The notes under the pieces are model-generated. The model saw only the letters and a list, made by a program, of their open reading frames with translations. It did no database searches and was not told where the DNA came from. A DNA stretch of 31,854 bases from Bradyrhizobium sp. (GTDB lineage: Bacteria > Pseudomonadota > Alphaproteobacteria > Rhizobiales > Xanthobacteraceae), in assembly GCA_028290305.1 (NCBI GenBank), contig JAQGKC010000075.1:1-31854 (forward strand), in the 5' to 3' direction. Both the position numbers and the translations under genes were made by a program. Below are positions 1,757 through 29,648 of the stretch, in pieces. The number at the start of each line of letters is the position of its first letter. Within the stretch, counting starts at the first letter, position 1.

Positions 1757-3642
1757 ATGTGCACCACACGCCGCGTCCGTGGCCAACCGCGCCGCTTCGC
1801 GAAGCCGTCTCGGTCGACCCGATCGTGCTGCAGATCGTCGAAGGCACGCTGAATTCGATCGAAGCCGAAATCGAATACGCCATCGAGCGCACGGCGCGCA
1901 GCCCCATGATCCGCGAAGCGCATGATTTTCGCGTCGGGCTGTTCGACCGCTATTGCCGCAAGCTGACCGGGCGTTCCTATTCGGCGATGCCGAATGGCGT
2001 GGTGCGTGACTTTCCACCGGAGACGATGAAGCCCGGCGACGTGTTCCTGATGAACGACACGTATTTGACGGAAGGCTCGATCGGGCACTTGCCCGATCTG
2101 TGCAGCACGGTGCCGGTGTTTCACGAAGGCGAGGTGGTCGCCTATATCCAGGCGTTCGGTCATCATGATGACGTCGGCGGCCGGGTACCCGGCTCGATGC
2201 CAGGTACCGCGGCCACCGTGTTCGAGGAAGGCATCGCGATCCCGCCGGTGAAGATTTATAGCGAAGGCGTGCGCAACGATGCCGTCTTCACCATTGTCCG
2301 CCGCAATACCCGCGTGCCGGAGATGCTGTCGGCCGATCTCGACAGCGAAATCCAGGCCTGCCTGATGGGCGCGCGGCGGATGGCCGGCCTGTTCGAACGC
2401 TTCGGCCAACAGCAGGTCGAAGCCTGCTTTCAGGCGATCCTGGAGAAGTGCCGCGACATCTATCGCAATGAACTGCTCGCGAAGATCGCCGACGGCGAAT
2501 ATGTCTGGGAGGATTACGTCGAGCATGATGGCATTACCGATCCGAAGCTGCACAAGATCGCGCTGAAGATGACCAAGAAGGGCGGCAAGATCACGCTTGA
2601 CTTCAACGGTACTGATCCGCAATCGACCGGACCGATCAATTGGCCGGCCGACTATGCCGACGGCGCATTCCTGATCAAATGGATCGCGCCGATCCTGCGC
2701 AATCTCGCCGATACGCCGGAGCGCGCCGCGGAAATCCACGTCAACGAAGGCGTCTGCGACGTGTTCGATGTGATTTTTCCTCCGAAGGGCACGCTGATCA
2801 CGCCGGAATGGCCGGCCGCGACCAATGCGCGGTCCTTTGTGCTTCTGCGCTGCCTTGGCCTGCTGGCGGGTGTGGTGGCGCAGGCGGTCGACGGCCGGAT
2901 GCCGGCCGATCAGGAGACCATCCGCTACACCGGATTCTTCGGCACTGATCTGGACGGCAAGCCGTTCCTGTCGCGCGAGGTGCTGGGTGGCGGCTCCGGC
3001 GGGCGATATTATGCCGACGGCAATGACGCGATTCATATCGTGCCGGACTCGCGCAATCAGCCTGCCGAATTCACCGAGACGCGATTTCCGCTTTTGGTCG
3101 AAAAGCTTGCGCTGCGAACCGATTCCGGCGGCGCCGGTCTGCGCCGCGGCGGGCAGGGCTATGAAAAGCATTATCGCGCGCTGGTCGATTGCCGCACCAT
3201 CGTCACCGCCGACCGGGTGCGGCTGGGCTGTTATGGTTTGAACGGCGGCAAGGCGGGGCGGCCGTTCTGCGTCACCGTCGATGCCGAGGGCGAAGGCTAT
3301 GATCTCGGCGGTCTCGTTGATGGCGAACCTGTCCTGAAAGGGCAGGTCGTGCGCGTGGTGACGACCGGCGGTGGCGGCTGGGGTGATCCGTTGCAGCGCG
3401 AACTGGAACTGGTGCTGCGCGATGTCGTCGAAGGCAGGGTCTCGCTCGCAAGCGCCAAAGCGGATTATGGTGTCGTGTTCATGGTCGCAGGTTCCACTGA
3501 GCAGCCTGTGATTGATGAGGCGGCGACAAAGCGACGCCGGGCCGACATGGGGAAGGCGCGAAATACCCCGCCGCCGATGATTGACCGCGGCGAGGGCTAT
3601 GAAAAGATGCTGCGCGGCGAACACCGGCCGCGGCTGCGGTGA
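1753..3642 (+). CDS. hyuB: Hydantoinase/oxoprolinase subunit B (HyuB)
   Basis: This is a full-length 629-residue HyuB, the partner of HyuA in ATP-dependent hydrolysis or carboxylation of cyclic amides and related compounds. Family hallmarks are DPIVLQIVEGTLNSIEAEIEYAIERTARSPMIRE-type sequence at residues 18-50, MNDTYLTEGSIGHLPD near residue 100, an HHDDVGGRVPGSMPG metal-site-like stretch near 137-151, and the C-terminal glycine-rich TTGGGGWGDP near 537-546. The ATG at 1753 lies 8 nt after an AGGAG-type ribosome site inside the 3' end of hyuA, so the 4-bp ATGA overlap is well supported. A 36-nt gap separates it from the ring-opening amidohydrolase gene. The substrate is unknown; N-methylhydantoin, oxoproline or a pyrimidine or triazine breakdown product are all possible. 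Confidence 0.94.
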   Translation: MNVHHTPRPWPTAPLREAVSVDPIVLQIVEGTLNSIEAEIEYAIERTARSPMIREAHDFRVGLFDRYCRKLTGRSYSAMPNGVVRDFPPETMKPGDVFLMNDTYLTEGSIGHLPDLCSTVPVFHEGEVVAYIQAFGHHDDVGGRVPGSMPGTAATVFEEGIAIPPVKIYSEGVRNDAVFTIVRRNTRVPEMLSADLDSEIQACLMGARRMAGLFERFGQQQVEACFQAILEKCRDIYRNELLAKIADGEYVWEDYVEHDGITDPKLHKIALKMTKKGGKITLDFNGTDPQSTGPINWPADYADGAFLIKWIAPILRNLADTPERAAEIHVNEGVCDVFDVIFPPKGTLITPEWPAATNARSFVLLRCLGLLAGVVAQAVDGRMPADQETIRYTGFFGTDLDGKPFLSREVLGGGSGGRYYADGNDAIHIVPDSRNQPAEFTETRFPLLVEKLALRTDSGGAGLRRGGQGYEKHYRALVDCRTIVTADRVRLGCYGLNGGKAGRPFCVTVDAEGEGYDLGGLVDGEPVLKGQVVRVVTTGGGGWGDPLQRELELVLRDVVEGRVSLASAKADYGVVFMVAGSTEQPVIDEAATKRRRADMGKARNTPPPMIDRGEGYEKMLRGEHRPRLR

Positions 3643-3678
3643 AACGAAGACAAGACGCACAACGGGAGTTTCTGACGC

Positions 3679-4773
3679 ATGGCGATTGAAGTTGCGAAGG
3701 TCGAACTGAAAACCGTTCAGGATGCGAGTGGCCTCGAGGGATTAATCGCGTCCGGCAAGTTCGGCGCCGACGAGGTCATCGCGGTCATCGGCAAGACCGA
3801 AGGCAATGGCGGCGTTAACGATTTCACCCGCATTCTGGCCGACCAGGCGTTTCGCCGTGTGCTGCTCAAGAACGGCAAGCGTTCTGAGGCCGAGATTCAC
3901 AATGTGCCGATGGTCTGGTCCGGCGGTTGCGACGGCGTCATCACGCCCCATGCCACGATCTTCGCCCGTAATAACAAGACCGGTCCGGCCGACAAATCGC
4001 GCCTCGTGATCGGAACGGCGCTCAGCGCGGAATTGCTGCCGGAAGATATCGGTCGCCCCGCGATGGTTCAGAAGGTCGCCGACGCCGTCAAGGCGGCGAT
4101 GAAGGACGCCGGGATCACCGATCCGAAAGACGTGCATTACGTCCAGACCAAGACGCCGCTTCTGACCATCGAATCGGTCCGCGATGCGGAATCGCGCCAC
4201 CAGACATTGGCCTGCGAGGTCCACGACTCCATGGGCGTTTCCAATGGCACCACCGCGCTCGGCATTGCCGTCGCGCTGGGTGAGGTGGCGATGCCGAAAG
4301 CCGAGCAGATTTGCAAGGATCTCGATCTCTATTCGTCGGTGGCGTCGTGTTCTTCGGGCGTGGAACTGACCCAGGCGCAGATCGTGCTGCTCGGCAACAA
4401 AGCGGGCGCGGGCGGACGGTATAGGATTGGCCATTCCGTGATGCGCGACGCGCTTGATATCGATGGCATTTACGATTCAATTCGCGACGCCGGCATCGAG
4501 TTGCCGGAACGGCCGCGGTCGGAGGACCTCAAGGGGCGCGTCGTCAACTGCTTCATGAAGTGCGAGGCCGACCGCACCGGCATGCTGCGCGGCCGGCGGC
4601 AGATCATGCTCGACGATTCCGACGTGCATCATCACCGCCATTCGAAGGCGGCGGTGGGCGGCGTGGCGGCGCTTGCGATCGGAGATCCCGCGGTATTCGT
4701 CTCGGTGGATGCCATGCATCAGGGGCCGCATGGCGGGGGCCCGGTGATCGCCATCGTCGAGTTGGACGAGTAA
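3679..4773 (+). CDS. Ring-opening amidohydrolase (cyanuric acid hydrolase / barbiturase family)
   Basis: This 364-residue protein belongs to the small AtzD/TrzD/barbiturase family, which hydrolyses a ring amide of cyanuric acid or barbituric acid through serine-lysine dyads. All expected pieces are visible: GKTEGNG with K39, WSGG with S81, VQTKTPLLT with K158, CSSGVEL with S226, FMKCEAD with K294, and the final [16 protein letters not shown] with S342. Length is normal for the family. The ATG follows GGGAG by 11 nt. The third serine loop reads SVDAMHQGP, whereas my recollection of AtzD is SGGAEHQGP, so the substrate may differ. It sits between hyuAB and an ABC importer, with an amidase gene downstream. 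Barbiturase, cyanuric acid hydrolase or an undescribed ring specificity are all open; family assignment is near certain. Confidence 0.93.
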
Positions 4774-4804
4774 AACCGGCACGTTCCTTGCTCCAATTCG
4801 TGTG

Positions 4805-4858
4805 CCCGCCGGCCATCTGACCGGTGGGTGCTCGCAAGGTGTATGACGGGGAGCACAC
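4805..4858 (+). promoter_or_regulatory. Possible structured leader before the binding-protein gene
   Basis: In the 86-nt gap before the binding-protein start, an 8-bp stem (4805-4812 with 4821-4828, one G-T pair, 8-nt loop) is seen. Two alternative pairings reach the ribosome-binding region: GTGCTC 4828-4833 with GAGCAC 4851-4856, and GTGTGC 4800-4805 with GCACAC 4853-4858. The GGGGAG ribosome site (about 4848-4853) overlaps these pairings. The structure could stabilise mRNA for high binding-protein expression or modulate its translation. No T-tract follows, so it is not a classical terminator. It could also be chance in GC-rich DNA. Confidence 0.3.
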
Positions 4859-4859
4859 G

Positions 4860-5834
4860 ATGAAATCGCTGAAACTTCAGATCTGCGCAGTCGCAGCGCT
4901 GGTCTTGAGCGTCGTTACGTTCGGCCACGCGTCCGCGCAGGACAAGGTCTCGGTCGGTGTGTTTCCGGTTAGCTCCTCGCTGCCCTATTTCGTCGCGCTG
5001 GAACGGGGGTTTTTCAAGGAACAGAACATCGAGCCGGAGATGACCAAACTGATGGGCGGCCCGCCGAACGTTGCCGCGATGATGACCAACCAGATCGAGG
5101 TTTCGGCGGTGCTGGTTACGCTCGAGGGATTGAACGCCAATGTGAAGAAGCCCGGCGTGGCGATGTACATCGCGCTCAACAGCCAGACCAAGGTCTGGAA
5201 GATGGAACAATTCGTCGTCCGCAACGGCTTCAAGGCGGAGACGATCGCGGACCTCAAGGGCGCCAAGCTGATGTCGGCGCCGGGCCCAGCCAATCTCAAC
5301 ACCGCCAAGGCCATTCTCGCCAAGAACGGCCTGAAGGACGGCGACTACACCATCGATCAACTCGACATGGGCCAGCACGTCAACGCCATGACCGCCGGAA
5401 CATTTGACGGCGGATATACGCTTGAGCCCAACGCCTCGATGATGATCAAGGCCGGGGTTGCGCGGTCGCTCGAAGCCGGCGTCATCTCCAAATATATCCT
5501 TGGCGACGAAGCCGCCGATGCCTATGCGGCCGGCTGCGCCATGACCAGCGATTTCATCCAGAAGCGGCCTGACGTCGCCAGGCGTTTCGCCGTCGCGTGG
5601 GGCAAGGCCATCGATTTCATCAACAAGAATCCGGACGAAGCGCGCAAATATCTCGCCAACAACACCTACACGCCCGACAACGTGGTCGATATGGTGTCGA
5701 TGCTGGGATACGTCATGGCCGGCGATATGAGCCCCAAGCAGATCGGTGATTTGCAGAAACTGGCCGACTTCGGCAACTCGATCGGGGTCGTCCCTGAGAA
5801 GCTCGACGTCACCAAAGTCCTGCAGAAATTCTGA
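4860..5834 (+). CDS. ABC transporter substrate-binding protein, NitT/TauT (NMT1-like) family
   Basis: The protein has 324 residues and is secreted to the periplasm. It starts at ATG 4860 after a GGGGAG ribosome site and has a clear signal peptide (MKSLK, hydrophobic core, HASA cleavage after about residue 26). The mature part follows the NMT1/SsuA-like pattern: a beta strand, then FPVSSSLPYFVALERGFFKEQ, with lobe-switch segments further on (NGFKAETIADLKGAKL). Relatives bind nitrate, sulfonates, taurine, thiamine precursors or phthalate-like acids, so the ligand cannot be read from sequence. The ATPase gene follows after 7 nt, so the three transporter genes form one unit. The position between a ring-opening amidohydrolase and an amidase suggests import of their substrate. 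Confidence 0.9.
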   Translation: MKSLKLQICAVAALVLSVVTFGHASAQDKVSVGVFPVSSSLPYFVALERGFFKEQNIEPEMTKLMGGPPNVAAMMTNQIEVSAVLVTLEGLNANVKKPGVAMYIALNSQTKVWKMEQFVVRNGFKAETIADLKGAKLMSAPGPANLNTAKAILAKNGLKDGDYTIDQLDMGQHVNAMTAGTFDGGYTLEPNASMMIKAGVARSLEAGVISKYILGDEAADAYAAGCAMTSDFIQKRPDVARRFAVAWGKAIDFINKNPDEARKYLANNTYTPDNVVDMVSMLGYVMAGDMSPKQIGDLQKLADFGNSIGVVPEKLDVTKVLQKF

Positions 5835-5841
5835 GGCGCCC

Positions 5842-6666
5842 GTGGCTGGAGCACAGCTAGCTGCAAAGATCGAATTGGCGGGCAAAGTTCCGGATTCGAC
5901 GCGGCGGACAGCTCCCCACGTCACGATCCGCGGCCTGACCAAGCGATTTTCCGACGCCACGATCTACGACAACTTCGATTTCGATATTCCGCGCGGCAAG
6001 TTGATGTCGGTGTTCGGTCCGAACGGCTGCGGCAAGAGCACGCTGATCAACATGATCGCGGGACTGTTTCCGGTCGATGCCGGCGAGATCCTGTTCGACG
6101 GGCAGCCGCTCAGCAAGATCAAATTCGGATATGTATTCCAGAATTACCGCGAAGCGATGTTTCCCTGGCTGCGCGCCTTCGACAACATAGCCTATCCCTT
6201 GAAGGTGATGGGGGTGCCAAAGGCCGAGCGCATCGTTCGCGTCGAGAAACTCGTTGCCAATCTCAACGTCAAGATCGATCTCAGCCTCTACCCTTACCAG
6301 ATGTCGGGCGGTCAGCAGCAACTGGTTTCGATCATGCGGGCGCTGATCGTCGAGCCGGAAATCCTGTTCCTCGACGAGCCATTCTCGGCGCTGGACTACG
6401 AAATGACATTGTTCATGCGCGAGCAGTTGCAGCGCGTTTTCATGGAGACGGCAACGACGACGGTGCTGGTGTCGCACGATCTGGAAGAAGCGGTGTATCT
6501 GTCGGATCGCATCCTGCTGCTCTCTCGCCATCCCGCCCGCGCCGTCGAATTCGTCCATTACGACGCGCCACGACCGCGGACGCTAAAGACCATGTCGGAA
6601 GCCGACTTCATCAGCACCAAGGCGCATTGTCTCGAGGTGTTCCAGCGCGAGGTGCGCAAGGGATGA
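5842..6666 (+). CDS. ABC transporter ATP-binding protein, NitT/TauT type
   Basis: The energising subunit of the importer has 274 residues from GTG 5842, 7 nt after the binding-protein stop. Longer frames upstream would overlap that gene, so GTG is chosen. All ABC motifs are present in order: Walker A GPNGCGKST (59-67), Q-loop VFQ (Q100), signature MSGGQQQ (154-160), Walker B ILFLDEP (174-180) and switch histidine in SHDLEEA (H212). FPWL after the Q-loop is typical of the nitrate/sulfonate/taurine ATPases. Its stop overlaps the permease start as ATGA. It would act at the inner face of the membrane with the permease at 6663. Confidence 0.93.
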   Translation: MAGAQLAAKIELAGKVPDSTRRTAPHVTIRGLTKRFSDATIYDNFDFDIPRGKLMSVFGPNGCGKSTLINMIAGLFPVDAGEILFDGQPLSKIKFGYVFQNYREAMFPWLRAFDNIAYPLKVMGVPKAERIVRVEKLVANLNVKIDLSLYPYQMSGGQQQLVSIMRALIVEPEILFLDEPFSALDYEMTLFMREQLQRVFMETATTTVLVSHDLEEAVYLSDRILLLSRHPARAVEFVHYDAPRPRTLKTMSEADFISTKAHCLEVFQREVRKG

Positions 6667-7418
6667 AGCGATTTCAGGTTTTCCTGCCTTTCGTTGGTGT
6701 CGCGGTGCTGCTGGCGGTCTGGTCGCTGACGGTCTGGGCGCGGGTCGTCGATCCCGTCCTGCTGCCGTCGCCGGTTGCGACATTCCGCGCGATGTGGGTC
6801 GGGATGACCAACGGCAAGCTCGGGCTCGATTTCCTCAAGACCGTCGAACGCACGATCTATTCCACGGCGATCGCGGCGGTCATTGCAATCCCGCTTGGGA
6901 TCCTGCTCGGCTCATCCGAAAAGCTTTATCGCTCAGTCGAGTTCCTGATCGACTTCTTTCGCTCGACGCCGGCCTCGGCGATGTTTCCACTGTTTCTGGT
7001 GCTGTTCGGCGTCGGCGACCGCACCAAGATTTCGGTCGCCGCCTTCGGTGCAGCGCTGGTGATCCTGTTCAATGTCGCCTATGGCGTGATGAACGCCCGC
7101 AAGACACGCATTCTGGCGGCGCGGGTGATGGGCGCCTCGCGGGTCCGGGTGCTCTGGGATGTCATGCTGCTGGAATCCCTGCCGCAAACCTTCGTTGGAC
7201 TGCGCAACGGCGTGTCGCTGGCGCTGGTGATTGTGGTCGTTGCCGAGATGTTCATCGGTTCGACTGATGGGCTCGGCCAGCGCGTGTTCGAGGCACAGCA
7301 GTTATTCAATATGCCCGACATGTACGCGGCGATCTTCGCCGCGGGGGCGCTCGGCTATGGCCTCAATCTCCTGTTCCTCACCATCGAACGTCGATTCGTG
7401 CACTGGTCGGGCAAGTAA
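6663..7418 (+). CDS. ABC transporter permease, NitT/TauT type
   Basis: This is a 251-residue inner-membrane permease with about six hydrophobic segments, starting at ATG 6663 in an ATGA overlap with the ATPase gene. The first helix is at residues 4-26. The EAA-like cytoplasmic loop that contacts the ATPase is visible as ARVMGASRVRVLWDVMLLESLP (about 157-178). Length and layout are normal for SsuC/TauC-type permeases. It probably acts as a homodimer, because this transporter has only one permease gene. The amidase gene starts 11 nt later, suggesting the same transcript. Confidence 0.92.
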   Translation: MKRFQVFLPFVGVAVLLAVWSLTVWARVVDPVLLPSPVATFRAMWVGMTNGKLGLDFLKTVERTIYSTAIAAVIAIPLGILLGSSEKLYRSVEFLIDFFRSTPASAMFPLFLVLFGVGDRTKISVAAFGAALVILFNVAYGVMNARKTRILAARVMGASRVRVLWDVMLLESLPQTFVGLRNGVSLALVIVVVAEMFIGSTDGLGQRVFEAQQLFNMPDMYAAIFAAGALGYGLNLLFLTIERRFVHWSGK

Positions 7419-7429
7419 CGGAATTTCAT

Positions 7430-8839
7430 ATGATCGAGAATCTGAGCCGCAAGACGGCCGTCGAACTGGCGTCGTTGATCGCGACCAAGGCGGTCAGCCC
7501 GGTCGAGGTGCTCGACGCCCATCTCGCCACGATCGCGCGCGTCAATCCCAAACTCAATGCCATTGTGACGCTGGTGGCCGAGGCCGCGCGCGCTCTGGCA
7601 AAGGATGCCGAGGCGGCCGTGATGCGCGGCGACAAACTCGGCGGGCTGCATGGGCTGCCCGTGGTGATCAAGGACATCACGCCGACCGCTGGTATCCGCA
7701 CCACCTATGGTTCGCCGTTGTTCAAAGACAATGTGCCGACGGAAGATGCCGAGGTGGTGCGGCGTCTGAAAACGGCGGGTGCGATCGTGCTCGGCAAGAC
7801 CAACACGCCCGAATTTGCGGCCGGCGCCAATACCTTTAATGACGTGTTCGGCGTTACCCGTAACCCCTGGAATCCGGCGTTGAGCCCGGCTGGTTCTTCC
7901 GGCGGATCGGCGGTCGCGGTGGCAACAGGAATGGTGCCGTTGGCGCAGGGTACCGATTTCGGCTGCTCGATCCGAATGCCGGCGTCGTTCTGCGGCATTG
8001 TCGGGATCCGGCCGACGCCGGGGCTGACGCCGAACTGGCCGATGCCGCTCGCCTGGGATCCAGGCCAGGTTCATGGCCCGCTGGCGCGCACCGCCGAGGA
8101 CGCGGCGCTGATGCTCGATGCGATCGCAGGCTTTAGCCCGATATCACCGATTTCGGTCGCACCGCCATGGGCGAGTGCGCGGGCCATCGTCGCAAAAGCC
8201 AACGATGTGAAGGGCCTGCGCGTCGCTTATGTGTCCGACATCGCCGGTATCGGCGTCGAACCTGAGATCGACGGCATCTGCCGGGCAACCGCGCTGTCGC
8301 TGCGCGACGCCGGCGCAACGGTGGAGGAGATTGCGTTCGATACCTCCGACGGCAAGTCGCCGTATCAGGCCTGGCGCGGGCTGTGGATGGTCGGGCAACA
8401 ATTTGTCAATCTCGACCGGCTCGAAGAGTTCGGCGTCAATCTCAAAGGCAACGTCAAGGCCGGTCTCAAGGTGACGCCGCTGGATTTTGCCGCGTCCGAA
8501 CAGAAGCGCCAGGAGCTGTTCCGGCGCTTCGCAAAATTGTTCGAACAATACGATCTCCTGATTACGCCACAATCGCCGGTAAAGCAGTTTCCGGTCGAGA
8601 TGAATTTCCCGACCCTGATCAACGGCAAGAAGCTCGACAATTACACCGACTGGATCGCCGGCTCGTTCCTGATCACGCTGATGAGCCTGCCCGGCGGCAG
8701 CGTGCCGGCCGGCATGACCAGCGATGGATTGCCGGTGGGTATCCAGATCGTCGGGCCGCGCTTTGAGGAACCTTTGATTCTATCAACAATGAAGATCGTT
8801 CAGCAGACCCATCCGATCGGCTGGCCTCCTCACGCGTGA
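7430..8839 (+). CDS. Amidase-signature family hydrolase
   Basis: The protein has 469 residues, cytoplasmic, no signal peptide. The Ser-cisSer-Lys triad of the amidase-signature family is recognisable: K81 in GLPVVIKDI, S156 in PAGSSGGSA, and nucleophile S180 in GTDFGCSIRMP. The usual GGS before the nucleophile is GCS here (Cys179). Family members cleave linear amides such as biuret, allophanate, ureidomalonate, indoleacetamide or Glu-tRNA-linked glutamine. Its place after a ring-opening amidohydrolase and an importer suggests it cleaves the ring-opened ureide, for example as a ureidomalonase- or biuret hydrolase-like enzyme, but that is inference. The 3' end overlaps the convergent NmrA-like gene by 10 bp. 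The ATG follows the permease stop by 11 nt with only a weak ribosome site. Confidence 0.9.
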   Translation: MIENLSRKTAVELASLIATKAVSPVEVLDAHLATIARVNPKLNAIVTLVAEAARALAKDAEAAVMRGDKLGGLHGLPVVIKDITPTAGIRTTYGSPLFKDNVPTEDAEVVRRLKTAGAIVLGKTNTPEFAAGANTFNDVFGVTRNPWNPALSPAGSSGGSAVAVATGMVPLAQGTDFGCSIRMPASFCGIVGIRPTPGLTPNWPMPLAWDPGQVHGPLARTAEDAALMLDAIAGFSPISPISVAPPWASARAIVAKANDVKGLRVAYVSDIAGIGVEPEIDGICRATALSLRDAGATVEEIAFDTSDGKSPYQAWRGLWMVGQQFVNLDRLEEFGVNLKGNVKAGLKVTPLDFAASEQKRQELFRRFAKLFEQYDLLITPQSPVKQFPVEMNFPTLINGKKLDNYTDWIAGSFLITLMSLPGGSVPAGMTSDGLPVGIQIVGPRFEEPLILSTMKIVQQTHPIGWPPHA

Positions 8840-9690
8840 GCGGCAGCCGTTCGCGCGGCAAATGACGCCAGCGACGTTGGCGGGCGTCCGAGCAACCAAC
8901 CAAGCACGTTGGGATTGCCCTTGAGCCCGTCGCGCGCGTAGGCGCCAAACATCTTGATCAGCGTTTCGCGCTGATAGTCGTCCATACCTGCGCTGCGGGC
9001 ATGCTGTTCCCAACTCTCGATGGTTCGGGCTTCGGCCCGAATGGCTTTCTTCAGCGCCTTGCCGAATGTATCGGCGATCTCGATCTGGTTGAGCGGCGGG
9101 GTGCCGGCCAGTTCATAGGTTGCGCCGGAATGGCCGTCCTCCGTCAGCACCAATGCTGCAACTCCCGCAACGTCGTCGAGATCGACGAGGCTAAGCCGCG
9201 TCTCGATGGGGTAGGGCACGCGATAGACGCCGTCGCCGACCATGCGATCCCATTCGGCGAGCGAGTTCTGCATGTAGGCGGTAGGCTGCAGGATGCTGAT
9301 GTCCAGTCCGGAGCTGAACAGCATCTCCTCGACCCGCAGCTTGTTCCAGTGGTGCGGCATGGCTTCGATCTGTGGATGCAGCACGGAATGATAGACGAGG
9401 CGGGAGACGCCCATATCGGTCGCAGCGCGAATGAGCGTCTTTGCGAAAGTCACTTCGTGCGGACTTACATTTGGGCAGATGTGATAGACCGCATCCGCTC
9501 CTCGCACAGCCTGGGAAAACGAATGCGCATCGTCCATCGCACCCGCGACGACGTCGCTGACGCCCAGGGCCAGCAGCGCGGTTTCATGCGCCAGGCTTCG
9601 GACGAACGCGCGCACGACCGCGCCGCGCGCGACGAGCGCCTTGATAACTGCCTTTCCCGTCTTGCCGCCTGCGCCCGTGACAAGGATCAT
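8830..9690 (-). CDS. NmrA-like / atypical SDR NAD(P)-binding protein
   Basis: This 286-residue protein has a Rossmann fold beginning MILVTGAGGKTGKAV, the GxxGxxG dinucleotide-binding motif at residues 7-13, followed by an arginine-containing second strand (RAFVR) that often favours NADP. The middle (VYHSVLHPQIEAMPHHWNKLRVEE) and YMQNSL match NmrA/HSCARG- and quinone-reductase-like atypical SDRs that lack the classical YxxxK tetrad. It may be a redox sensor or small-molecule reductase. ATG 9690 lies 21 nt after the stop of the Mo-subunit gene with a CAGGAT ribosome site, so it is probably the fourth gene of the hydroxylase operon. It is convergent with, and overlaps by 10 bp, the amidase gene. 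The substrate is unknown. Confidence 0.85.
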   Translation of the reverse strand: MILVTGAGGKTGKAVIKALVARGAVVRAFVRSLAHETALLALGVSDVVAGAMDDAHSFSQAVRGADAVYHICPNVSPHEVTFAKTLIRAATDMGVSRLVYHSVLHPQIEAMPHHWNKLRVEEMLFSSGLDISILQPTAYMQNSLAEWDRMVGDGVYRVPYPIETRLSLVDLDDVAGVAALVLTEDGHSGATYELAGTPPLNQIEIADTFGKALKKAIRAEARTIESWEQHARSAGMDDYQRETLIKMFGAYARDGLKGNPNVLGWLLGRPPTSLASFAARTAAAHA

Positions 9691-9711
9691 GCGTCATATC
9701 CTGACAGTGCG

Positions 9712-12054
9712 TTAGCGTTGCGCGTTCCGGGTCAGTTCGAACAACCGGCTCGGGCTGAGCGGGATTTCGAGCAGCTCCACGCCGCGGCCTTTCAGATCGA
9801 GCGCGTCTTCGATCGCCTGGGCGAACAGTGGCCCCGCAGGAATTGCGCCGGCTTCACCCGCTCCCTTGATGCCCATCGGATTGAGCGGCGACTTGGTTAC
9901 CGTGTGGGCAAGCTCCATTCGGGGAACTTCGAGCGCAGTCGGCAGCAGATAGTCGGCAAGCGAGGCGTTCAGCAGTTGCCCCTGATCATCGAACACCAGC
10001 TTCTCGTAGAAGGCGTTGCCGATCCCCTGCGCGACGCCGCCATGGATCTGGCCAGCGAGGATCATCGGATTGATCACGGTGCCGCAATCATGCACCACGA
10101 CATATTTCAGGATTTTCAGGTCGAACGTCTTCGGATCCATTTCGATGATCATGGCGTGGACGCCATTTGCCGTCGCCCCCATGGGAGGTCCGAAATATTG
10201 CGTCGATTCCAGCCCCGGCTCGGTACCCGGCTGGACCGCCCCCCTCATCGGATTGGCCTGGTCCGCGAGAGTCCCCAGTTTGACGAATTTTTCGGGAATG
10301 CCGACGATCGAGACCTTGCCGTCTTCGATCACGAGGTCCTCTTCGGAACATTCGAACAGATCGCTCGCGAGCTTCAAGGCCTTCTTCCGCACGACCTTTG
10401 AGGCTTCGTTGACGGCATTGCCCGCGACCACGGCGCCGCGGCTGGCAAACGTACCGGCGCCCCAGTAGAACTGGTCGGTATCTCCGGTGACGACGTCGAC
10501 ATCCGTGACGGCGACGCCGAGCTGATCGGCGGCAATCTGGGCAAAAACGGTGAAGTGCCCTTGCCCCTGGGTGCCGATGCCGGTTGCAACGCTCACCTTG
10601 CCGTTGGATTGAACCTGAACCTTGGCGCCTTCGTAAGGGCCGATGCCGGTGCCCTCGACATAGCAGGCCACGCCGATGCCGATGTGGCGGCCTTCGGCGC
10701 GCAGTTTCGCTTGCTCGTCTTTGAAGGTGCCGTAGCCGATGGCGTCGAGCGCCATATCGAGCACCGGCTCATAATTCCCGCTGTCGTATTCGAGCACTTC
10801 GAAATCCTGATAAATGATTTCGTTATTGTAAGGAAACGCATCGGGCGGAATGAGATTTCGCCGCCGAATCTCGGCCGGGTCGATGTTCAATTCGTTCGCT
10901 GCGAAGTCGAGCAGGCGTTCCATGACGAATACGCCGTGCTGACGCCCGGCGCCGCGATACGGCGTGACGATCGGGAGATTGGTGAACAATTGGGTGAAGG
11001 TGCTGTCGTAGTTCGGCACGACATAGGGGCCGAGCAGGGTGCACTGGCTGTTAATCGGCACTGTCAGCCCATACGGATCGTAGGCGCCGCCGTCGTGCAG
11101 GAAAACGTCCTTGATACCAAGAATCCGGCCGTCGTTGCTCAGCGCGATCTCGGCATCGTGAATCTGTCCCCGTTCGTGGGTGGTGGCAAAGAAATGCTCA
11201 AGCCGGTCCTCGATCCATTTGACTGGCCGATTCAGCTTCATCGACACCCACGGCAGCAGTACTTCCTCGGGATAAAACATCATGATCTTCGGTCCGAAAC
11301 CGCCGCCGACGAACGGCGCGATCACCCGAACCTGTCGCTCGCTGAGGCCGAGCATGCCGGCGAGGCCGTTACGGACGAATACCGGCGCTTGCGTGGTGTC
11401 CCAGATCGTCATCTGGTTGGCGCGCGCATCCCATTGCGCGACCACGCCTCGGGTTTCGATCGGCGATGAAATGCCGTGTTCATAGTGGAAACGGCGTTTG
11501 ATGATGTGATCTGCCTTGGCGACAGCCGCGGCATAGTTGCCCTTGGTCTGCCGGACATGCGCTGACACGTTGGAGCCGACGTCGTCGTGAACAAGTGCCG
11601 ATTCTGCGCTCAGGCCCTTTTCCAGATCGACTACGGCTGGAAGTGGTTCAAGTTCGATGTCGATATCGCCGAGTGCATCCTCGGCGATATAGCGGCTCTC
11701 CGCGATCACAATGACAAGGGGCTCACCGACGTGGCGGACCTTGTCCTTGGCGAGCGGAACCTGGGTTCGCTCGTTGAAGACAATGCCGGCAATCGGCGGC
11801 GGCGGTACCAATATAGGGCCGGGTTGCCAGTAATCGCCGAGGTCGCTGGCGACGTAGGCGGCGACAACGCCGGGACGCTGCAGCGCTTCCGAAACATCGA
11901 TTTTCAGAATTCGGGCGTGCGCCAGCTGGCTGCGCAGGAACGCGACATGCAACATGCCGGGCAGTTCGACGTCATCGATGAATAGCGCTTGGCCGGTGAG
12001 GAGCCTGCGATCTTCATTGCGTTTGATCGGTTCGCCGAATGTGCGCGTGGACAT
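9712..12054 (-). CDS. Molybdenum hydroxylase large (Mo-cofactor) subunit, CoxL/XDH family
   Basis: This is the 780-residue catalytic subunit, which binds Mo-molybdopterin cytosine dinucleotide-type cofactor and hydroxylates an aldehyde or N-heterocycle carbon using water. Visible marks are VGGGFGPK (249-256), the active-site loop PYRGAGR (365-371), QGQGHFTVFAQIAAD near 505-520, and the catalytic glutamate in GIKGAGEAG (about E734). The loop resembles the AYRGAGR of so-called form II CODH-like enzymes. It lacks the AYxCSFR loop with the Cu-binding cysteine, so true CO oxidation is unlikely. It starts 4 nt after the FeS subunit stop; gene order is FAD, FeS, Mo subunit. Substrate unknown; the context favours a nitrogen heterocycle such as a pyrimidine. 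No cofactor-maturation genes (coxD, xdhC) are visible. Confidence 0.92.
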   Translation of the reverse strand: MSTRTFGEPIKRNEDRRLLTGQALFIDDVELPGMLHVAFLRSQLAHARILKIDVSEALQRPGVVAAYVASDLGDYWQPGPILVPPPPIAGIVFNERTQVPLAKDKVRHVGEPLVIVIAESRYIAEDALGDIDIELEPLPAVVDLEKGLSAESALVHDDVGSNVSAHVRQTKGNYAAAVAKADHIIKRRFHYEHGISSPIETRGVVAQWDARANQMTIWDTTQAPVFVRNGLAGMLGLSERQVRVIAPFVGGGFGPKIMMFYPEEVLLPWVSMKLNRPVKWIEDRLEHFFATTHERGQIHDAEIALSNDGRILGIKDVFLHDGGAYDPYGLTVPINSQCTLLGPYVVPNYDSTFTQLFTNLPIVTPYRGAGRQHGVFVMERLLDFAANELNIDPAEIRRRNLIPPDAFPYNNEIIYQDFEVLEYDSGNYEPVLDMALDAIGYGTFKDEQAKLRAEGRHIGIGVACYVEGTGIGPYEGAKVQVQSNGKVSVATGIGTQGQGHFTVFAQIAADQLGVAVTDVDVVTGDTDQFYWGAGTFASRGAVVAGNAVNEASKVVRKKALKLASDLFECSEEDLVIEDGKVSIVGIPEKFVKLGTLADQANPMRGAVQPGTEPGLESTQYFGPPMGATANGVHAMIIEMDPKTFDLKILKYVVVHDCGTVINPMILAGQIHGGVAQGIGNAFYEKLVFDDQGQLLNASLADYLLPTALEVPRMELAHTVTKSPLNPMGIKGAGEAGAIPAGPLFAQAIEDALDLKGRGVELLEIPLSPSRLFELTRNAQR

Positions 12055-12058
12055 CCTG

Positions 12059-12541
12059 TCAGCCCCGCATTCGTTCGGCAGCCGTCATCACGGCATCGAC
12101 GATGTTCTGGTAGCCGGTACAGCGGCACAGATTCCCGGAAAGCGCCTCACGTACCTCGTTCTCGTTAGGTGAGGCGTTTTCATTGAGAAATGCCGTCATG
12201 GTCATTAAGATGCCGGGCGTGCAGTAGCCGCATTGCAGGCCGTGATGATCATGCATCGCCTGCTGCAACGGATGATATTCACCATCCTTGTCGGTCAGGC
12301 CCTCAACCGTCGAAATTTCATGATTTTTCGCCTGCACGGCGAGCATCAGGCATGAGCGCACGGGCTGGCCGTCGAGCAAGATGGTACAGGCCCCGCAGAC
12401 GCCATGTTCGCAGCCGACATGCGTGCCGGCCAGCGCCAGATCATGGCGAAGGAAGTCGCTCAGCAGCATGCGCGATTCCACGCGGCGCTGATATTTCCTG
12501 CCGTTCACCGATAGCGTGATATCGTGATAGTCAGTGTCCAT
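12059..12541 (-). CDS. Molybdenum hydroxylase small subunit, two [2Fe-2S] clusters (CoxS-like)
   Basis: The 160-residue electron-transfer subunit carries two [2Fe-2S] clusters between the Mo and FAD subunits. The plant-ferredoxin-type cluster ligands are C44, C49, C52 and C64 (GCEHGVCGACT, then SCL). The second cluster uses C104, C107, C139 and C141 (CGYCTPG, then GNLCRCTGY). ATG 12541 is chosen because the protein then begins MDTDYHDITLSVNG like other family members; the longer open frame would intrude into the FAD-subunit gene. It overlaps the FAD-subunit 3' end by 11 bp, and the Mo-subunit gene follows after 4 nt. Confidence 0.94.
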   Translation of the reverse strand: MDTDYHDITLSVNGRKYQRRVESRMLLSDFLRHDLALAGTHVGCEHGVCGACTILLDGQPVRSCLMLAVQAKNHEISTVEGLTDKDGEYHPLQQAMHDHHGLQCGYCTPGILMTMTAFLNENASPNENEVREALSGNLCRCTGYQNIVDAVMTAAERMRG

Positions 12542-13406
12542 CGCGCACCCGCTGGTAAGCTGTCTGCAGTGCTCGCTCGGTGAGTACGCCCGCGATATGG
12601 CGCTGATAATCCGCGGTGGCATGAACGCTGCCGCCCGGGTCGATCAATGCCTGCGCCGCTGCCGCGACATGGCGTATCGCATCTTCGGTCAGTTGGTGCC
12701 CTACAAGATCACCGGCTGCCGAACTGGCATCGATGGGGGTTTCGCCCACGCCGCAGAAAGTCAGCCGAACATCGGTGCATTCGCTTTCGTGGCCCAGAGT
12801 GATCATCGCGGCCACCCCGACAATGGCAAAATCGCCGCGCCGGCGCGCGATCTCCATGAAGCAACACCCGGTGCGCGGCTTTGGCTGAGGCAATTCGATT
12901 TCCACCAGCATTTCGTCGGGCTGGAGCTCGGTCGTGAGCGCGCCCACAAAAAAGTCCGGTGCCTCGATCCATCGTTCTTGCTTTGCTGCCTGAATGCGGA
13001 ACCGGGCGCGCAACGCCAGCGCGATGGCGGGAAGCTCCGAGGCGGGGTCGGCATGTGAAAGATTTCCGCCGATCGTGCCGCGATTGCGGATTTGCGGATG
13101 TGCGATATGCGGCAGCGCCTCGCCGATCAGAGGAAATGCATTTGCAAAAGCCGCGTCGCGTTCCAGCGCCCGGTAGCGCGTGACCGATCCAATCCGTGTC
13201 ACCCCGCCGAAGGGGTGAATACCGGCCAGATTCTCGATCTCATTGATGTCGATCACAATGGCCGGCTGCGCGAGGCGAAAATTCATTGCCGGCATCAAGC
13301 TCTGTCCGCCAGCCAGAAACTTGGCGCCGTCGCCATGTTCCGCCTTGAGCGTGAGTGCGTGCTCGAGCGAGGTGGCGGCGATGTATTTGAAGGGAGCAGG
13401 CTTCAT
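12531..13406 (-). CDS. Molybdenum hydroxylase FAD-binding medium subunit (CoxM-like)
   Basis: The 291-residue flavoprotein subunit passes electrons to the external acceptor. The two FAD-binding signatures of the CO dehydrogenase/XDH flavoprotein family are present: AGGQSLMP (about 32-39) and TIGGNLSHADPASELP (about 108-123). ATG 13406, giving MKPAPFKYIAA, matches the usual family N-terminus; a TTG 42 bp upstream would add an atypical extension and is not favoured. It is the first gene of the - strand operon FAD-FeS-Mo-NmrA. The 227-bp region upstream is shared with the divergent importer operon and should hold its promoter. Confidence 0.92.
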   Translation of the reverse strand: MKPAPFKYIAATSLEHALTLKAEHGDGAKFLAGGQSLMPAMNFRLAQPAIVIDINEIENLAGIHPFGGVTRIGSVTRYRALERDAAFANAFPLIGEALPHIAHPQIRNRGTIGGNLSHADPASELPAIALALRARFRIQAAKQERWIEAPDFFVGALTTELQPDEMLVEIELPQPKPRTGCCFMEIARRRGDFAIVGVAAMITLGHESECTDVRLTFCGVGETPIDASSAAGDLVGHQLTEDAIRHVAAAAQALIDPGGSVHATADYQRHIAGVLTERALQTAYQRVRDGH

Positions 13407-13633
13407 GGCGCTCGCGTGTAACAACAGAACGCGGTCGCCCGCTTTCAAGCGCTACGCCGCGCTCAAAGTATGAGGCGCGCTCTTGCGCAAGTCAAAAAAC
13501 GGGTGGGCTTTTTGCCCATCTGAAAATCCGATAAGGGTATGTTTGAGCCCGATGGTATTGATGCCCATTTAATATCTTCTTATGCGTAAACATTGAGCGC
13601 GCCATTTACTGCAGTGTTTGCCACTATTTGCGA
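13407..13633. promoter_or_regulatory. Divergent intergenic region between hydroxylase and importer operons
   Basis: These 227 bp separate two divergent operons and must contain both promoters. Seen in it are a perfect 10-bp palindrome CTTGCGCAAG at 13482-13491, the terminator-like hairpin at 13494-13520, and an AT-rich tract near 13555-13590 with a weak TTGATG...TATGCG pair (spacing 17) that could be a + strand promoter. No regulator gene lies nearby. The site assignments are tentative. Confidence 0.4.
13494..13520 (-). terminator. Terminator- or attenuator-like hairpin in the leader of the hydroxylase operon
   Basis: Read on the - strand, a stem GATGGGC / GCCCACC-type with an AAAAA loop (13520-13502; five perfect G-C-rich pairs plus a G-C and a G-T pair) is followed two bases later by six T residues (13499-13494). 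This is the form of an intrinsic terminator. It lies about 88 nt upstream of the FAD-subunit start and points towards it, so it would act as a leader attenuator or stop upstream readthrough. No short leader peptide gene was identified. Confidence 0.45.
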
Positions 13634-14560
13634 ATGGCGCTGCAAATGCCGAAGTCGTTGAAGCTGGATGATACGGGCGTTACGCTGAGCGCGGACGAAC
13701 GAGAATCGTTCGTCACACGAATCGAACCGGCAAGCATGAGCAACGCTGCGGATGCCAACGCTGAGTCAGTTTCTTCGCCGCAGCGCTTGGCGGTCGATGT
13801 ACGCAATGTTTCGCTGACGTTCGAGACATCAGACGGCAAGGTCGAGGCGTTGTCGAATGTCAGTCTGCAGATCGCCGACGGCGAATTCGTTTCCTTCATC
13901 GGGCCTTCCGGATGCGGCAAAACAACGATGCTGCGGGTGATCGCTGATCTTCAGCAACCGACGGCGGGCACGCTTCTCGTCAACGGCATGAGCGCGGAAC
14001 AGGCGCGCCTCGATCGCCGATATGGATATGTCTTCCAGGCGCCGGCTTTGTTTCCGTGGCGCACGATCGAGAAGAATCTAAAACTGCCGCTGGAGGTCAT
14101 GGGTTTTTCCGATAGCGAGCAGCAGCAGCGGGCGGCGCGCTATCTGGCGCTGGTCAATCTCACCGGCTTCGAGCGCAAGTTTCCCTGGCAATTGTCCGGC
14201 GGTATGCAGCAACGGGTCTCGATTGCCCGCGCACTGTCCTTCGATCCAGCGCTGCTGTTGATGGACGAGCCGTTCGGCGCGCTCGATGAAATCGTCCGTG
14301 ATCACCTTAACGAGCAGCTATTGCAATTGTGGGACAAGACCGGAAAGACAGTCCTGTTTGTAACCCACTCAATCCCCGAAGCGGTCTTCCTGTCCACCAA
14401 AATCGTGGTGATGTCACCGCGCCCCGGGCGGATTATCGATATCATCGATTGTAACTTTCCGCGCGACCGCACCTTGGAAATTCGCGAGACGCCCGAATTT
14501 CTCAAGATCGCACAGCGCGTGCGTGTCGGGCTTCGGGCGGGGCATTCCTATGACGAGTAG
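13634..14560 (+). CDS. ABC transporter ATP-binding protein, NitT/TauT/ThiZ type
   Basis: ATPase of the second importer, about 308 residues from ATG 13634. Motifs counted from that start: Walker A GPSGCGKTT (90-98), Q-loop VFQ (Q135), signature LSGGMQQR (187-194), Walker B LLLMDEPF (207-214) and H245 in VTHSIPEA. The family core starts near residue 50, so the first ~50 residues are an unusually long leader. ATG 13736 (beginning MSNAADANAES) is an equally possible start; neither has a strong ribosome site. The gene overlaps the first permease by 11 bp. It is most like ATPases that serve thiamine-precursor, riboflavin, nitrate or sulfonate importers; the ligand depends on the binding protein at 16630. 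Confidence 0.9.
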   Translation: MALQMPKSLKLDDTGVTLSADERESFVTRIEPASMSNAADANAESVSSPQRLAVDVRNVSLTFETSDGKVEALSNVSLQIADGEFVSFIGPSGCGKTTMLRVIADLQQPTAGTLLVNGMSAEQARLDRRYGYVFQAPALFPWRTIEKNLKLPLEVMGFSDSEQQQRAARYLALVNLTGFERKFPWQLSGGMQQRVSIARALSFDPALLLMDEPFGALDEIVRDHLNEQLLQLWDKTGKTVLFVTHSIPEAVFLSTKIVVMSPRPGRIIDIIDCNFPRDRTLEIRETPEFLKIAQRVRVGLRAGHSYDE

Positions 14561-15476
14561 CGCGCTCGCTCTCCCGGCGTCAGGTGCCGGCGCGCCGCGG
14601 CGTCATCCGCTGGTATTTCGTTATGCGCCGATTTTGACGATCGTTATGGCGCTGATTGCGATCTGGTATATCGCGGCGGTGCTGATGAACCTTTCGCAGG
14701 TGCGCGACGCCTTCGAGCGCGAGGAGACGCCCTACACGGTCTCCGACCTGATCGCCGGCACCATGAGTGGTGAACGGCCGCTGCTGCCGGCACCGCACCA
14801 GGTGATAGTAGCCTTCACTGATTCGGTTTTCGGTTATGCGCCGACTGCGCCGCGGAGCCTCGTCTATCATTCGGCGATAACGTTATCGGCGACGTTGCTC
14901 GGATTTTTCCTGGGCGCGCTGCTTGGCATCGGGCTGGCGTTGATGATCGTGCACAGTCGCGTGCTCGAGAAAAGCCTGCTGCCCTGGATCATCTGCTCGC
15001 AGATGGTGCCGATCCTGGCGCTGGCGCCGATCTTCATCGTGGTGCTCGGCGCGATCGGATTGCAGGGGCTGCTGCCGAAGTCGATCATTTCGGCCTATCT
15101 GTGTTTCTTCCCGATCACGATCGGGATGGTGAAGGGTTTCACGGCGCCAGATCCGATGCAGCTCGATCTGATGCGGACGTGGTCGGCGACGCCCCGGCAG
15201 GTGCTGTCGAAGCTGCGCTGGCCGTCGGCCGTTCCCTATCTTTTCGCGAGCCTCAAGGTTGCCATCACCATCTCGCTGATCGGCGCGATCGTGGCCGAGC
15301 TGCCGACTGGCGCCGAAGCCGGCATTGGCGCGCGACTGCTTGCGGGGTCTTACTATGGCCAGACGATTCAGATCTGGGCGGCGCTGCTGGCGTCGGCGAT
15401 CCTCGCCTCGGGATTGATCGGGCTGGTGGATCTCGCGGAGCGTGGCGTGGCGCGGCAAATGGGAACGCGGCCATGA
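14550..15476 (+). CDS. ABC transporter permease 1
   Basis: The 308-residue inner-membrane subunit starts at ATG 14550, overlapping the ATPase gene by 11 bp. A first helix (about residues 27-48) is followed by a charged ~70-residue periplasmic-looking stretch (FEREETPYTVSDLIAG) before the canonical permease domain (about 105-300). The ATPase-contact loop is DLMRTWSATPRQVLSKLRWPSAVP, in which the usual glycine (YGA) is replaced by WSA. GAIVAELP near the end is conserved in SsuC/ThiX-like permeases. It pairs with a second, different permease encoded next (ATGA overlap), so the channel is probably a heterodimer. Confidence 0.9.
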   Translation: MTSSALALPASGAGAPRRHPLVFRYAPILTIVMALIAIWYIAAVLMNLSQVRDAFEREETPYTVSDLIAGTMSGERPLLPAPHQVIVAFTDSVFGYAPTAPRSLVYHSAITLSATLLGFFLGALLGIGLALMIVHSRVLEKSLLPWIICSQMVPILALAPIFIVVLGAIGLQGLLPKSIISAYLCFFPITIGMVKGFTAPDPMQLDLMRTWSATPRQVLSKLRWPSAVPYLFASLKVAITISLIGAIVAELPTGAEAGIGARLLAGSYYGQTIQIWAALLASAILASGLIGLVDLAERGVARQMGTRP

Positions 15477-16597: not shown

Positions 16598-16629
16598 CTC
16601 GGCGGGTTCTCAAGCTTTCGGAGTATCGC

Positions 16630-21092: not shown

Positions 21093-21506
21093 ATGAGCCA
21101 ACTCATCGTCCACGCCGGCGACTTCACGTTCCAGGCCCGATTCGAAGAACAATTGGCGCCCAGGACCTGCGCGGCGTTCCGCCGTGCCATGCCGTTCGAG
21201 AGCCAGGCGATCCATGTTCGCTGGAGCGGCGAGGGAGTCTGGATGCCGCTTGGCGATCTTGATTTCGGTGTCTCCTATGAGAACCACACCAGCTACCCCG
21301 CCCCCGGCCAGATCATTCTTTATCCCGGCGGCATCAGCGAAACCGAAATTCTGCTGGCCTATGGCGGCGTGCACTTCGCCAGCAAGATGGGCCAACTCGC
21401 GGGCAATCATTTCATCACGCTGACCTCAGGTCTCGAGAATTTGCCTGCGCTGGGCAAGACCGTGCTGTGGAAGGGCGCGCAGAAAGTCCGCTTCGAGGCC
21501 ACGTAA
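21093..21506 (+). CDS. DUF3830 family protein
   Basis: This 137-residue cytoplasmic protein is recognised as DUF3830 from its pattern: RFEEQLAPRTCAAFRRAMPFES, then HVRWSGEGVWMPLGD, the SYENHTSYPAPGQIILYPGG core, and EILLAYGG. The fold is expected to be cyclophilin-like, and no enzymatic activity is established for the family as far as I know. It is the first gene of the purine operon; its TAA stop shares a base with the puuE ATG, so the two are tightly coupled. A role in allantoin or ureide handling is inference from that coupling. Confidence 0.82.
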   Translation: MSQLIVHAGDFTFQARFEEQLAPRTCAAFRRAMPFESQAIHVRWSGEGVWMPLGDLDFGVSYENHTSYPAPGQIILYPGGISETEILLAYGGVHFASKMGQLAGNHFITLTSGLENLPALGKTVLWKGAQKVRFEAT

Positions 21507-22441: not shown

Positions 22442-22447
22442 GGCGGC

Positions 22448-24420: not shown

Positions 24421-24427
24421 TTGATTT

Positions 24428-24545: not shown

Positions 24546-24591
24546 GCACCGCACGGCTTCGTGTTGCGCAGCATCCAGGGTACAGTGCTTT

Positions 24592-28136: not shown

Positions 28137-28169
28137 GGATACTCTTGCAGTTTCAACGCGATGATCCTC

Positions 28170-28199: not shown

Positions 28200-28288
28200 C
28201 TTCCGGGAGGGATTCCGGCTGGTCTTTGAATTGCAGGTAGCCTTTGGAAGCGCTTTTTTAGACCGAAATCCTGGAGATGCCGCAGGCC

Positions 28289-29635: not shown

Positions 29636-29648
29636 GCCATCCCGAACG

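Follow-up and report, generated by a model that had tools for sequence, protein, structure and literature searches.

A candidate island for oxidative pyrimidine catabolism around a barbiturase-type gene in Bradyrhizobium sp.

Which ring is opened by the AtzD/barbiturase-family enzyme encoded on contig JAQGKC010000075.1 of Bradyrhizobium sp., and do the genes around it serve one pathway? The whole stretch analysed, called the window below, is 31854 bp long with 61% G+C. Near this enzyme (3679–4773) it encodes an amidase, a three-subunit molybdenum (Mo) hydroxylase (CoxM, CoxS, and CoxL; CoxMSL), and two ATP-binding cassette (ABC) importers. A preliminary description, made from the letters of the window, had named these genes, which domain matches bear out, and had read them as a candidate island for the oxidative pyrimidine pathway, a route described in the 1950s according to the accessible part of PMC3758960. 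That reading is supported by the barbiturase clade, the specificity residues, gene linkage, and co-occurrence, and we consider it likely that the island encodes oxidative pyrimidine catabolism. From these lines, together with family membership, we infer all of the substrates and reactions in the island. Three features are added to the earlier inventory: a HyuA–HyuB pair (HyuAB) directly upstream of the ring opener, an NmrA-like gene on the CoxL strand, and a misleading database call for the ring opener. Loci from relatives carry L-numbers (e.g. L009) and the genomes compared carry G-numbers (e.g. G139).

The best solved-structure match of the 3679–4773 protein is 5hwe (entry 'Barbiturase', presumably the Rhodococcus erythropolis enzyme) at 497 bits, compared with 323 bits for the best cyanuric acid hydrolase, and its identity to R. 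erythropolis barbiturase (Bar) is 67%. In a tree of 55 sequences, a 100/100 branch separates 25 barbiturase-type rows, the clade of the window protein, from 30 cyanuric-type rows. The former are Bar and 24 rows from loci titled as three phyla; the latter comprise 27 proteins from genomes in the order to which Bradyrhizobium sp. dw_411 belongs, together with three cyanuric acid hydrolases of solved structure. The phylogeny that the preliminary description had suggested as a check thus groups the ring opener with characterised barbiturase and not with cyanuric acid hydrolases. According to the accessible part of PMC3758960, cyanuric acid hydrolases carry R-T-R-G-G at positions 195, 321, 325, 345, and 346 (AtzD numbering), where barbiturases carry N-H-K-V-S/A. 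The solved cyanuric acid hydrolases that we compared have R-T-R-G-G, Bar has N-H-K-V-S, and the window protein has N-H-K-V-D, with four of the five barbiturase residues present (N195, H321, K325, and V345). All 82 fully readable rows of an 84-row alignment, window included, have N-H-K-V (L063 and one L067 fragment are not fully readable). In the clade of the window protein (mostly Proteobacteria, with some Acidimicrobiia and other groups), residue 346 is D, and the remaining Actinobacteria have A, S, or G there; Asp346 was considered as a mark of partnership with HyuAB and rejected, since it is seen both with and without HyuAB. The accessible part of PMC4051656 reports Gln at the Arg188/195 site for a barbiturase subgroup, whereas the window protein has Asn there. 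Judged by its sequence, the ring opener is barbiturase-type; a cyanuric acid hydrolase identity is rejected by the clade split and by N-H-K-V in place of R-T-R-G. The NCBIfam equivalog NF052395, 'cyanuric acid amidohydrolase', nevertheless scores 449.6 bits on this protein against a cut-off of 360. If our reading is right, this current NCBI model mislabels a barbiturase as a cyanuric acid hydrolase, and automatic annotation would probably give this barbiturase-clade protein the wrong name.

What surrounds barbiturase in other bacteria? We compared 82 loci, namely the best 80 of 521 confirmed relatives (64–96% identity) and two from plasmid-collection records; besides the tally of all 82, a separate one covers the 45 whose flanks each reach 7.5 kb or more. 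A neighbour was matched by blastp at E ≤ 1e-8, so weak ones count (malonyl-CoA synthase, MatB, 25% in L038; amidases 28–32% in L032, L059, and L069). The 45 long-flank loci hold amidase (16), an Mo hydroxylase large subunit (15), HyuB (14), cytosine-deaminase-like (13), AllG (11), AllF (10), and carbamate-kinase-like (9) genes, as well as RutG-like permease, malonyl-CoA decarboxylase (MCD), and malonyl-CoA synthase genes in four loci each (one synthase only 25% identical). On one strand, L009, L012, and L027 read HyuA, HyuB, CoxM, CoxS, CoxL, a uracil-permease-like gene (NCS2), and barbiturase. The order in L039 is RutG-like permease, cytosine-deaminase-like, barbiturase, amidase, MCD, and malonyl-CoA synthase, the last with a secure identity (821 bits, cut-off 558), and that in L035 (titled Rokuibacteriota) is barbiturase, CoxL, and cytosine-deaminase-like. 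Malonate handling by neighbours fits barbiturate and not cyanurate, because opened barbiturate contains malonate and cyanurate contains none. The nearest named relative met is Bradyrhizobium sp. dw_411 (L060; barbiturase 96%, CoxL 92%), which has the gene order of the window together with upstream LysR and cytosine-deaminase-like genes. Among 347 genomes of its order, a CoxL match at E ≤ 1e-260 occurs in three (G001, G038, and G139) and barbiturase of at least 77% identity in three (G001, G038, and G213), with two shared; the remaining barbiturase-family matches are at most 48% identical. The CoxL set of G139 (62%) adjoins amidase and malonyl-CoA synthase genes.

A larger sample, spread evenly over the class that includes Catenulispora rubra (which we take to be the Actinomycetes), comprised 394 genomes, among them the source genome of the CoxL query (G005). 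Presence limits were set once by judgement at E ≤ 1e-130 for barbiturase, E ≤ 1e-230 for L074-type CoxL, and E ≤ 1e-190 for L002-type HyuB. Each gene is present in 76 genomes, and 72 genomes have all three; the pairs barbiturase–CoxL, barbiturase–HyuB, and CoxL–HyuB are found in 74, 74, and 73 (hypergeometric value for the co-occurrence 3.5e-75, kinship ignored). The exceptions are barbiturase without CoxL (G372 and G471) or without HyuB (G552 and G558), CoxL alone (G375), CoxL and HyuB without barbiturase (G618), and HyuB alone (G460). The same pairs lie on one contig in 49, 54, and 59 cases, always on a shared strand, at median distances of 17.9, 5.7, and 8.9 kb, and a further 25, 20, and 14 are split across contigs. 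For barbiturase and CoxL, 44 of the 49 same-contig pairs are at most 30 kb apart. The preliminary description had worried that the genes of the window are on two strands; they are, but the concern is eased by these 49 same-strand pairs and by L009, L012, and L027, where CoxMSL sits inside the HyuAB–barbiturase run. As controls, 20 stretches of 20 kb were taken from 20 of these genomes at 200 or 300 kb from the barbiturase stretch. None holds any of the 21 families tallied, HyuB, CoxL, and carbamate-kinase-like (ArcC) genes included, whereas the barbiturase stretches have HyuB in 24 of 40 and ArcC in 25 of 40. The gene association is far beyond chance, and a chance neighbourhood is rejected by the shifted controls and by co-occurrence and linkage in the 394 genomes. 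The gene set thus recurs elsewhere, as had been proposed for checking, in these 72 genomes and in linked loci of several phyla.

Twenty actinobacterial islands of about 40 kb give a composite order of AllG and AllF (divergent), PucR, RutG-like permease, CoxM, CoxS, CoxL, amidase or nitrilase-type hydrolase, HyuA, HyuB, NmrA-like or class III CoA-transferase, carbamate-kinase-like, and barbiturase. CoxL is present in all 20 by construction, as the upstream stretches were chosen with the CoxL places known. The other counts are HyuB 20, barbiturase 19, carbamate-kinase-like 15, RutG-like 14, AllF 13, CoA-transferase-type 13, AllG 12, PucR 12, and NmrA 6; these are lower bounds, since the gene picker drops true high-GC genes when antisense frames win (barbiturase was missed in one island). 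The amidase slot holds an amidase in eight islands and a nitrilase-type hydrolase in eight, never both; in the other four neither type was found. A family found after CoxL in eight islands, with PF06240 in L074, is probably CoxG-like.

What, then, is the function of CoxMSL? Its Mo-cofactor, 2Fe-2S, and flavin adenine dinucleotide (FAD) subunits are all present. The best solved relative of CoxL is quinoline 2-oxidoreductase (533 bits; carbon monoxide (CO) dehydrogenase, 496), an enzyme that hydroxylates an N-heterocycle. CoxL keeps the KG.GE glutamate and has PYRGAGR in place of the CO dehydrogenase Cys motif AYXCSFR, which is absent; a CO dehydrogenase identity is rejected by this motif and by the nearest solved relative. 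In a 35-row CoxL tree, from which CoxL-type rows shorter than 550 aa or below 30% identity (L058 and L067) and xanthine-dehydrogenase-type large subunits were left out, the window CoxL falls in a clade (97/88) of 16 rows and 14 distinct genes (L083 repeats L060, and L084 repeats L074). Nine of the 14 come from barbiturase loci, in Alphaproteobacteria, Actinobacteria, and two near-identical metagenome-assembled genome loci titled Rokuibacteriota and Acidobacteria; with these, the loci in which the PYRGAGR (form-II-like) clade lies next to barbiturase span four phyla by title. Three others (L085, L086, and L104) come from genomes with barbiturase elsewhere, L103 from a genome with no barbiturase detected, and L089 is a dw_411 paralogue adjoining HyuAB. 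The form II 'CO dehydrogenases', with AYRGAGR in CoxL, likewise lack the CSFR cysteine motif; their order is coxSLM (PMC13203968, accessible part), whereas that of the window is coxMSL, in a context of pyrimidine catabolism. In the accessible parts of PMC13203968 and PMC7248562, the role of form II CoxL is called unclear and a different substrate is considered possible. Because of its linkage and co-occurrence with barbiturase, and on the assumption that uracil/thymine dehydrogenase (EC 1.17.99.4) belongs to the Mo family, CoxMSL is the best candidate for that enzyme.

Other oxidising enzymes are encoded near barbiturase in some relatives. In L064–L066, L068, L072, and L076 (mostly actinobacterial by title), barbiturase and AllG are followed closely, on their own strand, by a xanthine-dehydrogenase-type Mo hydroxylase distinct from CoxMSL. 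Recruitment may therefore have involved more than one Mo hydroxylase, and this one is perhaps a uracil oxidase acquired independently. No Mo hydroxylase was found within the stretch examined in L015, L016, and L028, where a gene like those of FAD-dependent monooxygenases (PRK07236 type, with 401 bits in L015) lies near barbiturase and, in L015 and L028, also near a cytosine-deaminase-like gene. The monooxygenase-like protein is another candidate oxidising enzyme.

HyuAB is the partner that the preliminary description had passed over. Relatives of this pair, N-methylhydantoinase and caprolactamase, spend ATP to hydrolyse cyclic amides. The best solved relative of HyuA is N-methylhydantoinase 7hk5 (386 bits), and HyuA scores below all NCBIfam cut-offs, the nearest being caprolactamase alpha (433 bits against 1000). 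The window pair shares the family and two-part layout of N-methylhydantoinase and caprolactamase (HyuAB and CapAB) but falls below every curated cut-off compared and is partnered with CoxMSL and barbiturase. R. erythropolis barbiturase is reportedly specific for barbiturate, and the dehydrogenase of that organism is said to accept thymine too, so that 5-methylbarbiturate would need its own opener. We tentatively prefer this ring as the substrate of HyuAB, with cleavage of ureidomalonate as the alternative. The idea that HyuAB simply replaces the amidase is rejected as a general rule, since the window, L006, L008, L015, L058, L060, and L067 carry both. In the dw_411 genome, L135 has a second CoxMSL (CoxL 48%) and HyuAB (35/29%) without barbiturase in the stretch, adjoining a cytosine-deaminase-like gene and two importers. 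This cluster is probably a sister pathway for another heterocycle, and the pairing suggests that HyuAB can open a ring oxidised by a CoxMSL enzyme.

The amidase (204 bits on the AtzE model TIGR02715, cut-off 426) is proposed, from its family and position, as the hydrolase of ureidomalonate (N-malonylurea hydrolase, EC 3.5.1.95) or of malonamate. For importer 2, the best solved relative of the binding protein is 3ix1 (E 1.5e-15), a ThiY-type protein that binds N-formyl-4-amino-5-aminomethyl-2-methylpyrimidine, which agrees with the ThiY-like binding protein noticed earlier; its gene order beside CoxM is repeated in L143 (dw_411) and L067. The binding protein of importer 1 belongs to the NMT1 family and has only weak solved relatives. 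No uracil permease was found among the window proteins. The NmrA-like gene beside CoxL is a recurrent island member, present near barbiturase in L002, L080, and L060, beside CoxM in L138, and in six of the 20 actinobacterial islands.

In the proposed mechanism, the ABC importers would bring in pyrimidines or their precursors, and CoxMSL would add oxygen to the ring, converting uracil to barbiturate and thymine to 5-methylbarbiturate. Barbiturase (EC 3.5.2.1), with its three Ser-Lys pairs, would open barbiturate to ureidomalonate, from which the amidase would release malonate, either directly with urea or by hydrolysis of malonamate. HyuAB would contribute a further ATP-driven hydrolysis, at best guess of a ring that barbiturase cannot use, such as 5-methylbarbiturate. 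The R. erythropolis JCM 3132 route, compared by its barbiturase sequence alone, consists of uracil/thymine dehydrogenase, barbiturase, and ureidomalonase. The window barbiturase is of the same clade as that of JCM 3132 and adjoins enzyme types that could carry out the other two steps; HyuAB, the two importers, and the NmrA-like gene are extra.

Relatives suggest a second way of using ureidomalonate, which differs from oxalurate by one CH2. AllF- and AllG-like (partly AllH-like) genes lie beside barbiturase in L022, L042, L030, L057, L064–L066, L068, L072, L075, and L076, with an AllH-like gene in L065. In L022 and L042, the order is barbiturase, carbamate-kinase-like, an unnamed gene, AllF, AllG, MCD, and malonyl-CoA synthase. 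In the allantoin pathway of Escherichia coli, AllFGH splits oxalurate with phosphate to give carbamoyl phosphate, which carbamate kinase uses (PMC11326118, accessible part); the genes in the relatives, all outside the window, are partnered with barbiturase (and MCD in L022 and L042) rather than with allantoin genes. This arrangement suggests a phosphorolytic, ATP-recovering branch that would split ureidomalonate. Mutual exclusion of HyuAB and AllFGH, apparent in most of the first loci, is rejected, since actinobacterial islands hold both.

Several observations weigh against the pathway reading. No Mo hydroxylase large subunit lies within the flanks examined in 30 of the 45 long-flank loci. At E ≤ 1e-260, CoxL has no match in G213, a genome with barbiturase, amidase, MCD, and MatB; in Rhodoplanes G002 and G003 (L036 and L010), which carry barbiturase and HyuAB, no CoxL at E ≤ 1e-60 exceeds 39%. 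Four barbiturase-linked CoxLs (L007, L031, L052, and L054) are outside the CoxL clade of the window, and across the entire CoxL tree the label 'barbiturase-linked' shows no significant clustering (83 of 500 shuffles were as low). Among barbiturase carriers, 31 of 40 also have a control CoxL paralogue, as do 6 of 40 non-carriers (the first 40 each of 58 and 58 drawn at random), so lineage inflates plain co-occurrence. Most permease and cytosine deaminase model scores fall short of the curated thresholds (in L009, uracil permease reaches 203 of 477; in L060, cytosine deaminase reaches 366 of 438), and these names are therefore family-level only. Finally, position 346 of the window protein is Asp, where the published barbiturase group has Ser or Ala. 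Could it be that only barbiturase and the amidase belong together, with CoxMSL and HyuAB neighbours by lineage and lifestyle and uracil oxidised by an enzyme encoded elsewhere? The loci without a linked Mo hydroxylase, the missing CoxL in G213 and the two Rhodoplanes, and the paralogue control all favour this, but the tight same-strand linkage in the actinobacterial sample, linkage among Alphaproteobacteria as well as in loci with Rokuibacteriota and Acidobacteria titles, and the distance of the control paralogue from barbiturase, at least 389,691 bp in the 7 same-contig pairs among 31 genomes, make it very improbable. Linkage, and not mere presence, carries the argument.

Somewhat less improbable, though still unlikely, is that the ring oxidised and opened is some other N-heterocycle (whether a modified pyrimidine, a hydantoin-like ring, or a further azine), the barbiturase-like and CoxMSL enzymes having changed substrate and HyuAB being the main opener. 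HyuB accompanies barbiturase in 74 of the 76 actinobacterial carriers, although the three steps of the textbook route do not include it; Asp346, the L135 cluster, and ThiY-like importers in a window with no uracil permease found also fit. Set against these are the uracil-permease-like, cytosine-deaminase-like, and malonate-activating genes that recur beside barbiturase or CoxL, and the match of four specificity residues and 67% identity to a barbiturase that acts on barbiturate. Least credible by far is an s-triazine pathway opened by a cyanuric acid hydrolase. The cyanuric route (AtzD/TrzD, AtzE, and AtzF) has the same ring-opener family and an amidase-signature partner, and NF052395 scores above its cut-off, but the window ring opener falls in a separate clade (100/100) with N-H-K-V in its active site, and the amidase is under the AtzE cut-off. 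No searched window protein reached the allophanate-hydrolase or AtzE cut-off, none is listed as biuret hydrolase, and relatives have malonate genes. We retain oxidative pyrimidine catabolism as the preferred reading.

The layout of the window is listed in Table 1. The plus-strand run from HyuA to the amidase spans 2–8839, with the window edge inside the run and intergenic gaps of −4 to 86 bp on estimated starts (−4 bp between HyuA and HyuB, 36 bp between HyuB and barbiturase). The minus-strand run of CoxM, CoxS, CoxL, and NmrA (13406–8830) meets it tail to tail, and importer 2 is divergent from CoxM. The promoter and terminator scan found no excess over shuffled sequence.

Table 1. Features of the window, with positions, strands, and the matches behind each name.
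Feature	Position	Strand	Evidence or remark
HyuA-like subunit, ATP-dependent cyclic-amide hydrolase, truncated by window edge	2..1756	+	N-methylhydantoinase 7hk5 match
HyuB-like subunit	1753..3642	+	N-methylhydantoinase 7hk5 match, 221 bits
Barbiturase (AtzD/Bar family, barbiturase clade)	3679..4773	+	PF09663 466.9 bits, TIGR02714 487 bits
ABC importer 1, NMT1-type binding protein	4824..5834, true start probably near 4860	+	PF09084/PF13379
ABC importer 1, ATPase	5746..6666 as listed open reading frame (ORF), true start probably near 5890	+
ABC importer 1, permease	6627..7418	+
Amidase-signature hydrolase	7430..8839	+	PF01425 347 bits
NmrA-like NAD(P)-binding protein	8830..9690	-	PF05368
CoxL-type Mo hydroxylase large subunit, PYRGAGR motif	9712..12054	-	Mo-cofactor domains
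CoxS-type 2Fe-2S subunit	about 12059..12541 (ORF opens 12622, true start probably 12541)	-	PF01799, PF00111
CoxM-type FAD subunit	about 12531..13406 (ORF opens 13448)	-	PF00941, PF03450
ABC importer 2: ATPase, two permeases, ThiY-like binding protein (about 16600-17616)	about 13628..17616	+
Ubiquinone-dependent-pyruvate-dehydrogenase-like gene	18229-19965		NF006591 1010 bits
Purine/urate block	21093-31776		separate from island

The purine/urate block holds DUF3830, PuuE allantoinase, a UraD-HIUase fusion, uricase, a two-gene xanthine-dehydrogenase-like enzyme (XdhA-C fusion and XdhB), 8-oxoguanine/guanine deaminase, and a BMP-type importer. It begins about 3.5 kb beyond importer 2 in the window; in dw_411, the island order is followed by about 23 kb of other genes and then by the same block (L143–L144). 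The DUF3830 gene (21093–21506) sits before the allantoinase gene, and in L129 a DUF3830 protein 73% identical to that of the window adjoins a divergent cyanuric-hydrolase-family protein. DUF3830 may have a role in ureide metabolism.

The core idea of the preliminary description is, with high probability, right, and the evidence now reaches a candidate for the first enzyme and a partner that had gone unnoticed. To our knowledge, no gene in the literature at large has been assigned to uracil/thymine dehydrogenase. In the open-access literature searched, outside which most subscription papers lie and whose texts were accessible in part, we found no such assignment and nothing joining barbiturase with HyuAB or CoxL. 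What emerges is a specific gene candidate for the first enzyme of the oxidative pyrimidine pathway and a candidate substrate for some members of form II CoxL. HyuAB comes to light as a close partner that had gone unrecognised, and relatives may have an AllFGH variant that recovers ATP. That the PYRGAGR CoxL clade is uracil/thymine dehydrogenase, that HyuAB is its near-obligate companion, opening 5-methylbarbiturate with ATP and so supplying a thymine branch, and that AllFGH with carbamate kinase splits ureidomalonate in many relatives is, taken jointly, a speculative proposal that we regard as doubtful but worth stating. If it is true, the oxidative route exists in hydrolytic and energy-saving variants, and a route regarded as 'rare' would reach about one-fifth (76 of 394) of the species sampled in one actinobacterial class.

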